Below are positions 6,570 to 32,282 of a stretch of 32,282 nucleotides of DNA, piece by piece; the stretch's first letter is position 1, and each line of letters begins with the position of its first letter. Location of the stretch: positions 1-32,282 of IMG/VR virus record IMGVR_UViG_3300040796_000047; one strand, given 5' to 3'. Origin of the DNA: a virus. The notes beneath the pieces were generated by a model. The model was not told where the DNA came from. It was given only the letters and a program-made list of their open reading frames with translations, and did not search any database. Made by a program: the position numbers and the translations under genes.

Positions 6570-6642
6570 CGGGGCGAGGGCCAAGCGGACGGCCACCGAG
6601 CTTCTAACTCGGAGGATGCAGGTTCGAATCCTGCCGCCCCGG
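6570..6642 (+). tRNA. tRNA-Arg(TCT)
   Basis: A complete cloverleaf can be drawn by eye. Acceptor CGGGGCG (6570-6576) pairs with CGCCCCG (6635-6641) over 7 bp. D stem GGCC pairs with GGCC if read from 6579/6580 to 6594, with loop AAGCGGA. Anticodon stem CCGAG pairs with CTCGG, with loop CTTCTAA. T stem GCAGG pairs with CCTGC, with loop TTCGAAT. The anticodon is TCT at 6603-6605, so it reads AGA/AGG arginine codons. Position 8 is A rather than the usual T, the base before the second D-stem strand is C, and no CCA is encoded. It is 73 nt with the discriminator G. Phage tRNAs commonly supply codons rare in the host. AGA is rare in this GC-rich DNA. Confidence 0.85.
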
Positions 6643-6678
6643 CCGAGTGAGGCGCCCGACGGCGCAGAGAGGAACGAC

Positions 6679-7148: not shown

Positions 7149-7682
7149 GTGAGGACGAGAGAGGCCACCGTGGGTAAGGCAATCACCTCCCACCCAGCAC
7201 TATCAAGGCTCACCGAGAAGCAAAGGCGGTTCGTGCTGGCGTACCGCGCGCACGGTAACGCAACACGAGCCGCTCGAGAGGCCGGGTACGCAGGCAGCCC
7301 GAACACACTGAGCGCGGTTGGTTCGGAAAACCTGAGGAAGCCTAAGGTCTTAGGGGCGCTAGAGGCCATGGGCGAGCCAGAGGAGTCCGCCCGCATCCTC
7401 AGCACGGAGGAGCTCGACGAGTGGTGCTCCGCGGTCGTGCGCGGCGAGGTCGGCGAGCCGGAGACAGACCTGGCGGGGCAGGTAGTAGGTGAGGCTCCGC
7501 CGAAGCTGCGTGACCGCATCGCAGCGGCCAAGATGCTCTATCAGCGCAGGGGTGCGTTTGTGTCGCGCAGCGAGGTCCGGCACCTGCCGGACGACAGCAA
7601 GAGCCTGGATGAGCTGGCTCAGGAGGCGCGTGAGCGGGCCGAGCGGGTGCTGCGGCTCGTGGGCGGTGGCGAGGAGCAGTGA
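7149..7682 (+). CDS. terS: Terminase small subunit
   Basis: 177 aa. GTG 7149 is 7 bases after GGAGGTGA. GTG 7170, after AGAGAGG, is an alternative that loses 7 residues. The N-terminal region has the Terminase_2-type DNA-binding signature, LTEKQRRFVLAYRAHGNATRA then AREAGYAGSP, with the helix-turn-helix at residues about 20-60. The C-terminal part is Glu/Arg-rich and should form the oligomerisation and large-subunit contact. The small subunit recognises the packaging site and loads DNA onto the TerL motor. It heads the late operon, ends in a GTGA overlap with the acetyltransferase-like gene, and TerL follows two genes later, a normal order with two extra genes inserted. Confidence 0.9.
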   Translation: MRTREATVGKAITSHPALSRLTEKQRRFVLAYRAHGNATRAAREAGYAGSPNTLSAVGSENLRKPKVLGALEAMGEPEESARILSTEELDEWCSAVVRGEVGEPETDLAGQVVGEAPPKLRDRIAAAKMLYQRRGAFVSRSEVRHLPDDSKSLDELAQEARERAERVLRLVGGGEEQ

Positions 7683-8125
7683 GTTGGGAGCTGCGCCCGC
7701 CGCGTCCTGAGGAGGTCGCGCTCATCACGCAGACGTACGTGCGCGGTGCGCGGCGGGCGATGTGGGATGCGGAGCTCGAGGGCCGAGGCTGGCCTGCGCT
7801 CGCCGAGCGATTCGTGGCGGCCTCTCTCGAGGCGGGGCACTGCGTGGTGGCCGGCTGGCCGGGGAGCGATGTGGTCGGCGGCTACTGCCTGGGGCAGCGC
7901 GACGCCGACCGGGCCGTGTGTCACTGGGTGTACGTCAAGGGTTTGTACCGGAGGCGCGGTATTGCTACCATGCTCGTGGGAGCCCTGCGGGCGGGCCTAG
8001 ACGAGGTCATCGTGACGCACACCGCCTCACGGTGGCAGCGTGCGCGCGTGCGTCGCGAGGGGTGGAGGGCCGCCGATAGGCTGCCGTGGCTGTGGCTGTT
8101 GGAGTATGAGGGAGCACATGGGTGA
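7679..8125 (+). CDS. GNAT-like acetyltransferase domain protein (148 aa)
   Basis: GTG start in a GTGA overlap with terS. The pattern fits a small GNAT fold: an N-terminal RPPRPEEVALI strand-helix, a central strand pair (CVVAGW, VVGGYCLG), then WVYVKGLYRRRGIATMLV at residues 83-100. This contains the acetyl-CoA-binding motif A form R-x-x-G-x-A (residues 91-96), followed by a strand and a helix with a basic surface. GNAT proteins transfer acyl groups to amines, and the target here is unknown. A GNAT-like gene between the two terminase subunits is plausible as a modifier of a host or virion protein. Motif A is the main evidence. Confidence 0.7.
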   Translation: MSWELRPPRPEEVALITQTYVRGARRAMWDAELEGRGWPALAERFVAASLEAGHCVVAGWPGSDVVGGYCLGQRDADRAVCHWVYVKGLYRRRGIATMLVGALRAGLDEVIVTHTASRWQRARVRREGWRAADRLPWLWLLEYEGAHG

Positions 8126-30617: not shown

Positions 30618-31529
30618 TCAGCGGCCGCCTAGCGGCAGCGCGATCTGGCGACTCGGCTCGACGGGGGCCGCCGTCGCGAGCGTCGGATCTCTGTCCCATG
30701 TGGGAAGCCGCTGGCACGCCTCGCCCCATGTCAGCGGCACGCAGCGAGTCTGCGTCGCAACCGGAGCGTGCTGGTCGGGTCGAACGCCTCGACAAGGGGG
30801 GTCCTTGTCGCCCTCCAATAGGGAGCACGCATGAGTGCGAACCCCGCGCGACATGCGCGCGTCGGCGGGGATCGCATCGTAGCTCAGCACGTCGCTGGCC
30901 AGCCGTCGCCGGGCGTCGGCGTCCAGAAACGCGATGTACCTGATCTGGTATCCATGCAGTCGCACCAGACCAGCCTCGGCCATGGCTCGACGACCTACCA
31001 CGGCGTTGCGCCGGTCCGTGTGGCCGAGCCCGAGGCGGGCACGCAGGGCGGGCGACGTGGCGATGCCGACGTCGCTGACCACGTCGCCATCCGGCGTGCG
31101 ATAGAGCGTCGAGTTCGTGCGTACCTGAGTGAGCAGCATTCCGGCCGCACGGTAGATGGCGCCATCCCCGCATTGCGTGGCGTCCGCGTAGGACACCACC
31201 CACTGGATATGGGGCGCGTGCCGCCGCAGCATCCGGAGCGTGATGGCGAGGGCGCGCGACTCGGAGTTGCGCGGGAGGCCCGGGCCGAACGCCATGCGGT
31301 TGATCTCGAGATACCCGTTCCACGGCGTGCCAGGCACGACGTGCAGGAGTTTGCGCGTGTCGATGCCGGGCCCGAGCTGGATAGCGCCCCAGAGCTCGCC
31401 GTTCAGAAAGGCGCCGATGTGCAACCGGCTCTTGGAGTACGTGCGCCCGCTGTAGTGCCACCGGCGCACGCACTCGTCGGCCGCCGCACGCTCTATCGGA
31501 CGGAGCCGCATGTCCTTGGCGCTGGCCAT
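30618..31529 (-). CDS. Mom-family DNA modification protein (303 aa)
   Basis: ATG 31529 on the minus strand. GTG 31556 would add 9 residues. Residues about 1-210 match the Mom family (GNAT-related enzymes that add a carbamoylmethyl/acetamido group to adenine N6 in DNA): RWHYSG (23-28), FLNGELWGAIQLG, LEINRMAFGPGLPRNSESR (74-92), WVVSYADATQCGDGAIYRAAGM (begins 110, with Asp116 and Tyr126 ten residues apart), and YQIRYIAFL (194-202). Phage Mu Mom is about 231 aa, so this has an extra C-terminal 90 residues with Cys/Arg/Pro that might bind metal or DNA. Such modification protects phage DNA from restriction. It stands alone with a likely leaderless promoter. No Com-like gene is adjacent. Confidence 0.8.
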   Translation of the reverse strand: MASAKDMRLRPIERAAADECVRRWHYSGRTYSKSRLHIGAFLNGELWGAIQLGPGIDTRKLLHVVPGTPWNGYLEINRMAFGPGLPRNSESRALAITLRMLRRHAPHIQWVVSYADATQCGDGAIYRAAGMLLTQVRTNSTLYRTPDGDVVSDVGIATSPALRARLGLGHTDRRNAVVGRRAMAEAGLVRLHGYQIRYIAFLDADARRRLASDVLSYDAIPADARMSRGVRTHACSLLEGDKDPPCRGVRPDQHAPVATQTRCVPLTWGEACQRLPTWDRDPTLATAAPVEPSRQIALPLGGR

Positions 31530-31534
31530 GCCGC

Positions 31535-31606
31535 ATCGTAACAGACCAGCCGCCACGGCGCCCGTTGGGCGTCGCGCGTGCCCATGTCTGGGCAGCGTGC
31601 TACTCT
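31535..31606. promoter_or_regulatory. Divergent promoter region with two small inverted repeats
   Basis: Minus strand: TGTTACGAT, an extended -10 type element (TACGAT at 31540-31535), 5 bases before the Mom ATG at 31529. Plus strand: TGCTACTCT (TACTCT at 31601-31606), 6 bases before ATG 31613. Between them lie CGCCC-GTT-GGGCG (31559-31571) and GCCCA-TGTC-TGGGC (31580-31593). The distances imply leaderless transcripts in both directions, and the inverted repeats may be operators. No clear -35 was seen for either. Confidence 0.5.
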
Positions 31607-31612
31607 CGCCGC

Positions 31613-31726
31613 ATGCCGTCCTACAGCTCCGGCGATTGTGAATTCACCGTCAACGAGGTGCAGGCGAATGCGGACGCGCACCTCGAGGCGTCAGGGCCTC
31701 GACCGCGCGCGGCGTCAGCTCGGTGA
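31613..31726 (+). CDS. Possible 37 aa leaderless ORF, divergent from Mom
   Basis: ATG 31613 comes 6 bases after an extended -10 and has no Shine-Dalgarno. It encodes MPSYSSGDCEFTVNEVQANA, then an Arg/Ala/Pro-rich end, 37 residues. One cysteine only, no TM segment. It overlaps a reverse-strand small ORF (31650-31769), and at most one of the two is likely to be a gene. Its support is the promoter-like element alone. Confidence 0.35.
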   Translation: MPSYSSGDCEFTVNEVQANADAHLEASGPRPRAASAR

Positions 31727-31769
31727 AGGGGCGCGGCCCCGGAGTGTCGCTGCTGGGCATGAGCGTCAT
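31650..31769 (-). CDS. Possible 39 aa ORF coupled to SSB
   Basis: The ATG at 31769 overlaps the SSB stop as ATGA, the coupling used across this genome. It encodes 39 residues (MTLMPSSDTPGPRPFTELTP, then an Arg/Pro-rich end), too short to recognise. It overlaps the plus-strand ORF 31613-31726 in opposite orientation. Confidence 0.3.
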   Translation of the reverse strand: MTLMPSSDTPGPRPFTELTPRAVEALTPRGARPHSPAPR

Positions 31770-32209
31770 CGCCGGCCCTCCCACGGCATCCGCCGCCATG
31801 GACGACGCACGTCTGCTGCCGTCGCGAACGGGATCGCGTCGTCACCGAAGCCGTCGTCCGGGAAATCGGTCGGCGCCGAGCCGCCGAAGTCCTGCCGCGG
31901 GCCACGCCCGCCGCTGCGCCCACCGTCACCGCGCGGCTCGATGAGCGCGACGTCGCTGGCCCTGATCTCGACGGCCGTCCCCCGGCTGCCGTCGCGCGTC
32001 TCGTACTCGCGCACGCGGAGCTCGCCGGTGACGGCGACGCGCTTCCCGCGCGTCAGGTACTGCGCGACGGCTTCGCCGCGGCGCCCCCAGAGCGCCACGC
32101 GCAGCCACGTCGTCTCGTCGCCGCCGCGCGAGTAGTGCCCGACGGCCATGCGCCACTCCGTGACCGTCGTCTCCCCCACGCGCCTCACCTCTGCGTCGGC
32201 GCCGAGCCG
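31766..32209 (-). CDS. ssb: Single-stranded DNA-binding protein, 5' end missing
   Basis: Reads as an OB-fold SSB on the minus strand: RLGADAEVRRVGETTVTEWR (begins near 32209), MAVGHYSRG, TTWLRVALWGRRGEAVAQYL, TRGKRVAVTGELRVREYE, TRDGSRGTAVEIRASDVAL, then a Gly/Arg/Asp linker and an Asp-rich FPDDGFGDDAIPF tail of the type that binds partner proteins. The usual first strand (about 8-10 residues, start codon and SD) is missing because the sequence enters an 88 bp copy of 31869-31956. Translation initiation cannot be placed. GTG 32188 is in frame but cuts the fold. SSB protects single strands in replication and recombination. With the RusA-like nuclease it suggests phage-encoded recombination. 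Confidence 0.85.
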   Translation of the reverse strand, partial: RLGADAEVRRVGETTVTEWRMAVGHYSRGGDETTWLRVALWGRRGEAVAQYLTRGKRVAVTGELRVREYETRDGSRGTAVEIRASDVALIEPRGDGGRSGGRGPRQDFGGSAPTDFPDDGFGDDAIPFATAADVRRPWRRMPWEGRR

Positions 32210-32282
32210 CCGAAGTCCTGCCGCGGGCCACGCCCGCCGCTGCGCCCACCGTCACCGCGCGGCTCGATGAGCGCGACGTCGC
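32195..32282. repeat. 88 bp direct repeat of 31869-31956 at the window end
   Basis: 32195-32282 is identical to 31869-31956, with a 326 bp offset, and stops exactly at the end of the window. The source copy codes for the SSB linker (Gly/Arg-rich, then GGSAPTD). In the second copy the SSB frame differs by one base, and only the first 15 or so bases (coding LGAD) make sense as SSB. The pattern suggests an assembly jump between short similar sequences. Confidence 0.95.

Follow-up and report, generated by a model that had tools for sequence, protein, structure and literature searches.

The closest described counterpart of the system analysed here is Mom of phage Mu (PF25680, phrog_1384, PDB 8bv8), whose donor and chemistry have stayed open since its modified base was described in 1983. 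By the title of that paper (Swinton 1983, as cited in PMC4461284), the base is alpha-N-(purin-6-yl)glycinamide, and the modification has also been named N6-(1-acetamido)-adenine (PMC10286901). In work on jumbo-phage Mom proteins that carry REase domains as fusions, the proposed reaction moves an acyl group to N6 of adenine, with glycyl-CoA as a possible donor; that system differs from ours in its nuclease fusion, in having no described tRNA and in its assumed CoA-ester donor (PMC7824862). We analysed the window, a whole 32,282-nucleotide stretch of viral DNA, whose Mom resembles Mu Mom in its GNAT-like fold and conserved residues. Mu has Com, GATC sites and the motif ERCGRxG, whereas the window Mom has neither com nor upstream GATC and falls in a separate clade. 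Moreover, the window mom gene overlaps a tRNA-Gly-like gene, and the Mu Mom locus is without one.

A 2020 study of Mu Mom reportedly found that the protein binds acetyl-CoA and iron and put forward a different donor, which counts against Gly-tRNA in that role; to our knowledge, neither that study nor the authors of the jumbo-phage work considered a tRNA. Dedicated donor tRNAs operate elsewhere. The staphylococcal non-proteinogenic tRNA-Gly is chargeable by GlyRS, is barred from translation and serves as glycine donor to the GNAT-fold FemXAB peptidyl transferases. There the acceptor is a peptidoglycan precursor, whereas a DNA base is proposed here, and we know of neither a T-stem bulge nor a gene overlap in the staphylococcal tRNA-Gly. 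Mom and dedicated donor tRNAs are known already, and their combination is what would be new. We found no paper linking Mom with Gly-tRNA in the literature searched, whose coverage lacks many journals; tRNA-dependent DNA modification would be, as far as we know, without precedent.

The mom open reading frame runs on the minus strand from an ATG at 31529 to a TGA at 30618 and encodes 303 residues. Its product matches Pfam Mom (PF25680) over residues 7–217 with 146.4 bits (E=1.1e-42; cut-off 27.1) and phrog_1384 in PHROGs. An AlphaFold2 model built with 44 relatives has pLDDT >90 for most of residues 1–230, a confident GNAT-like core, and this core superimposes on the Mu Mom crystal structure 8bv8 with a VIA Z of 22.8 over 197 residues. 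Mu Mom aligns across nearly its full length, beyond the GNAT core. Across 44 diverse Moms, H25, Y26, E75, R78, D116 and Y126 are invariant, and S91 is invariant or nearly so. S91 aligns to Ser124 of the 241-residue Mu protein, where S124A is the inactive mutant according to the title of the 8bv8 entry; the equivalent serine is retained in the window Mom. The clade of the window Mom carries TQCGDG where the Mu type has ERCGRxG. Besides Mom, the fold neighbours among the 50 structural matches listed are acetyl-CoA enzymes, a point against Gly-tRNA as the donor; FemX- or Aat-type transferases are not among these 50, to which we attach no weight either way. The originally predicted membership in the Mom family is thus fully supported by sequence, fold and retained active-site residues, and the frame encodes a genuine Mom homologue, a GNAT-fold DNA modification enzyme. 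Elsewhere in the window, a frame between the terminase genes (7679–8122) weakly resembles acetyltransferases (GNAT; phrog_1249, E=0.0019).

The original prediction also gave this Mom a long C-terminal extension of an extra 90 residues. The reading frame is indeed open to 30618, as a genuine C-terminal domain would need, but everything else we examined speaks against a conserved domain. Nothing after residue ~217 has a Mom counterpart; nearly all of residues 231–303 have pLDDT <50 and are predicted to be disordered, and residues 234–256 are read-through of a 69-nt RNA gene. GC at codon position 2 is 0.67 in the read-through versus 0.53 in the mom core, and no counterpart of the tail beyond the RNA gene was found in relatives. 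After a common MYxG motif, the Mom proteins of relatives end in widely different ways (GGATPTRTLHS, RRCDTDPGAPS, EHHRPARSN), because these tails are different reading frames of one conserved DNA element. The start of the element falls within the mom frame in 63 of 68 distinct cases, in frames 0/1/2 for 7/18/38 of them; the mom frame traverses 54 of the 68, stops within nine and stops ahead of five, so that 14 Moms terminate inside or before the element. Tails found in all three frames, together with the low pLDDT, led us to reject a zinc-binding or other C-terminal domain, and we consider a protein-domain reading of the extra residues extremely improbable. The segment downstream of the RNA gene is probably not a functional protein.

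To search for the RNA, we used a covariance model, R1, built from 35 relatives of the 67–70-nt class with the window left out; the model was restricted to this class because the 5' acceptor strand came out misaligned when all lengths were put through MAFFT together. In the window, this held-out model scores 27.0 bits (E=1.2e-4; next best 0.51) at the mom 3' end, its sole real match in 32 kb. At minimum free energy the element folds into a full cloverleaf (z=-2.9; Table 1). The element has an A at position 33, yet its TTCGA T-loop is present. Its R1 score is among the lowest of the close set and its encoded end is CCG, so it could be decaying in this phage, although the cloverleaf is still intact; with this end, CCA would need completion by a host enzyme. 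Rfam tRNA (RF00005) and ARAGORN both miss the element, and an Rfam search with it gave no match. The window also holds a canonical tRNA-Arg (tct) gene at 6570–6644.

Table 1. Features of the mom locus in the window
Feature	Position	Strand	Evidence
Extended -10-like TGTTACGAT, 5 nt ahead of mom ATG	31535..31543	-	3/1954 ATG/GTG
mom core, residues 1-233	30831..31529	-	Pfam Mom, AF2, structure match, conserved residues
tRNA-Gly-like RNA gene, 69 nt, GCGTGCT...AGCACGC-T-CCG, mom codons 234-256	30762..30830	-	Covariance model R1, MFE fold
Acceptor stem 5' strand GCGTGCT (G1, C2, G3 = GlyRS identity positions)	30824..30830	-	7/7 paired with 30766-30772
D-arm CCCU-AUUGG-AGGG	30811..30823	-	MFE fold
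Anticodon arm, 8-bp stem, anticodon CCC (Gly) 30801-30799, A in place of U33	30790..30810	-	
T-arm GGCG-UUCGACC-CG[A]CC, bulged A at 30775	30773..30788	-	
Acceptor stem 3' strand AGCACGC and discriminator U73 (30765), then CCG	30765..30772	-	
mom ORF read-through beyond RNA gene, to TGA	30618..30761	-	Codon-position GC, pLDDT, relatives

In relatives, the element spans 67–76 nt and comprises a perfect 7-bp acceptor stem starting GC(G), a discriminator U, usually CCA, and an anticodon arm with NCC; the D-arm is missing or shortened in many. A bulged A in the T-stem recurs in 67/68 close, 46/47 distant-clade and 32/35 bacterial-genome elements (~97% of distinct elements). Pairing holds in 95.1% of pair cells across 72 distinct sequences, versus 33–43% in slid controls, and 306 cells carry double changes against a shuffled mean of 77.7, a value reached in 0 of 500 shuffles; the alignment was fitted to the model and somewhat favours its structure, with a margin that is very large. 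Compensatory changes occur at 15 of 17 pairs, while G1–C72 and C2–G71 never vary. These data establish a conserved tRNA-Gly-like RNA gene. They also bear on a possible origin as a phage attP, in which the element would carry the 3' end of a host tRNA-Gly. Integrases often use tRNA genes, and the Mom phage PAN70 has an integrase adjoining mom, but an attP site is contradicted by a whole cloverleaf with compensatory changes on both strands; the T-stem bulge is not host-like, the element is duplicated in tandem at two loci (L007, L268), and the window ORFs searched include no integrase. We regard this origin as vanishingly improbable.

Bacterial glycyl-tRNA synthetase recognises G1–C72, C2–G71, U73, C35 and C36. 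G1C2 is present in 68/68 close and 82/82 further elements, U73 in 68/68 and 81/82, and an NCC anticodon in 131 of 150 distinct elements when the arm is picked without regard to the anticodon. The GlyRS identity features are hence preserved. Like a canonical tRNA (RF00005), the element has acceptor, anticodon and T arms, NCC, U73 and, in most cases, an encoded CCA; unlike one, it often lacks the D-arm, bulges an A from the T-stem, varies from 67 to 76 nt and has mostly lost U33 and TTCRA. U33 appears in only 14 of 40 clear anticodon arms and a TTCRA T-loop in 13 of 68 close elements. Rfam tRNA recognises one of 20 mom loci scanned, that of phage Blett (L008), and ARAGORN detects few elements in relatives because the RNA is noncanonical; these programs and most annotations overlook it. 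Retention of GlyRS features together with loss of most decoding features fits an RNA that would be charged and kept out of translation, and the bulged T-stem suggests, on sequence grounds, that EF-Tu would bind it poorly.

The RNA and mom occur together with near-absolute regularity in both directions. Starting from mom, R1 finds the element at the 3' end in 84 of 86 close loci (L002–L007, L016–L095); one exception is cut by a contig end (L044) and the other lacks the element (L049). In the Microbacterium/Arthrobacter-phage Mom clade, where Mom shares ~21–28% identity with the window protein, it is found there at 70 of 80 loci, and six of the ten R1-negative loci have an ARAGORN tRNA-Gly near mom; for a further three (L127, L129 and L173), reading by eye shows a near-canonical tRNA-Gly at the mom end. 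The same holds for 37 of 43 loci in bacterial genomes, which span many phyla and include two bins of candidate phyla (CPR); an alignment-based scan yielded these loci, a single-protein contig scan none. Starting from the RNA, a mom-independent DNA pattern found 106 copies in IMG/VR, 105 of them with Mom directly upstream on the same strand; the 106th lies 63 nt from a contig start. Each of 12 longer viral records (12/12) holds exactly one element.

Cultured phages extend this picture. A tRNA-Gly lies at mom in Blett, Phonegingi, B2_17 and Wyborn, near-canonical in Wyborn and Blett and antisense to mom in Blett and Phonegingi. R1 gave no match on 13 further cultured-phage loci, among which ARAGORN calls a tRNA-Gly at mom in Phonegingi and Wyborn and a near-canonical one can be read in Sonny. 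The Mom loci of Mu, Enterococcus (Vaquero), JeffCo, Melnitz, PAN70 and pAEv1818 contain no such RNA, and Mom therefore does not strictly require a dedicated tRNA. Two JeffCo-like loci (L216/L217) have an ordinary tRNA-Gly(tcc) ~44 nt upstream of mom rather than downstream. Psychrobacter phage Y8A has two Moms (L007 7786–7926 and L231 1394–2158): one of the window clade, annotated hypothetical and with two tRNA-Gly-like elements in tandem behind it, and a Mu-type one annotated 'methylcarbamoylase mom'.

This distribution bears on two other readings of the RNA. Phages often carry tRNAs, and some mom-linked RNAs are near-canonical (Blett, which passes Rfam tRNA, and Wyborn), as expected if the RNA were an ordinary phage tRNA-Gly helping to translate glycine codons. 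Most elements, however, have neither U33 nor a canonical T-loop, often no D-arm, and a bulged T-stem; in the added viral and bacterial loci, ARAGORN calls no tRNA other than tRNA-Gly within 1 kb of mom, and the RNA tracks mom rather than codon use. Supplementation is therefore very unlikely. Alternatively, where a host defence cleaves tRNA or requires Gly-tRNA, the RNA might act as a decoy or as a replacement tRNA. There are phage tRNAs resistant to anticodon nucleases, such as T5 tRNA-Lys against PARIS AriB (PMC12707154), but exclusive linkage to Mom would go unexplained, and a replacement would need the decoding ability that has been lost; we give this function very little credence.

The surroundings of the gene were compared with the Mu arrangement. 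Mom had been described as standing alone on the reverse strand, which is not the case: the SSB gene (32188–31766), the acidic ORF (30406–29831) and the RHH ORF share the minus strand, and mom sits between SSB and the acidic ORF. The reported absence of an adjacent com held up, with no com-like Cys-rich minus-strand ORF between SSB and mom. There are no GATC (Dam) sites in the 300 nt upstream of mom (31530–31831) and no Shine-Dalgarno sequence before its ATG. An extended -10-like TGTTACGAT precedes the start codon at a distance found for only 3 of the 1954 ATG/GTG in the window and is a possible leaderless promoter for mom. With no com, no GATC and this element near the ATG, the suggested departure from Mu-type control is plausible. 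The notion of an anti-restriction region shared with the acidic protein found no support: that protein has no Pfam, PADLOC or weighty PHROGs match, and in relatives it is ParB that adjoins mom.

In several relatives (L016, L017, L047 and others), as well as in Arthrobacter, Microbacterium and Enterococcus phages, a gene with a ParB N-terminal domain lies directly upstream of mom or overlaps it; the window has no such gene. We considered ParB as the key partner of Mom and set it aside as less constant than the RNA. A mom gene that lacks the usual ParB and retains the RNA offers a natural test of their independence. Megablast of the first 25 kb of the window against phage genomes found no relative. 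At the contig right end, an exact 88-nt direct repeat (31869–31956 and 32195–32282) lies in the SSB gene, and the second, partial SSB copy there is probably an assembly end effect. The left end (1–242) consists of two-plus tandem copies of a 105-nt unit of GGTACCG-rich 32-nt repeats.

The overlap of RNA and reading frame raises the further idea that the element works as a structure within the mom mRNA, either as a cut site for RNase P/RNase Z or as a stabiliser of the 3' end; it would thereby limit expression of a toxic enzyme, and glycine acceptance would be irrelevant. Mu mom expression is under tight control, and wherever the element starts within the frame, RNA processing would sever the mRNA. 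A cut signal has no need of GlyRS identity positions or an NCC anticodon, though, and would not be expected antisense to mom, as in Blett and Phonegingi, or upstream of it, as in L216/L217. Overall, we judge a pure mRNA signal improbable.

We propose with good confidence that mom and the RNA form one modification module, in which a dedicated, non-decoding Gly-tRNA donates glycine to Mom. Since the Mu product is a glycinamide on adenine, a charged tRNA-Gly is the economical reading of the glycine donor. We infer that the RNA would be transcribed with mom, cut out of the transcript as a non-decoding tRNA and charged with glycine by the host glycyl-tRNA synthetase, while the bulge in its T-stem, the lack of U33 and an aberrant T-loop would exclude it from EF-Tu and the ribosome. 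Mom would then take Gly-tRNA in place of acyl-CoA and move the glycyl group to adenine N6 of phage DNA. The direct product would be N6-glycyl-adenine; by intramolecular rearrangement, the glycyl amine could attack C6 and release N6 as the amide, giving N6-glycinamide-adenine, which would block restriction enzymes. Mu-type Moms without the RNA may draw on host Gly-tRNA. With fair confidence, this would constitute the first aminoacyl-tRNA-dependent DNA base modification, with a translation-incompetent tRNA-Gly overlapping mom and Mu Mom using the Gly-tRNA of its host, and it would settle which donor Mom employs.

Taken together, the RNA is locked to mom in viruses and prophages, over several Mom clades and hosts from many phyla, and points to glycyl-tRNA as the likely donor. 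The element defines an RNA family that is absent from Rfam and mistranslated by gene finders as protein tails, and it provides a search handle for further anti-restriction loci. If true, the proposed mechanism would join DNA hypermodification with tRNA-dependent aminoacyl transfer.
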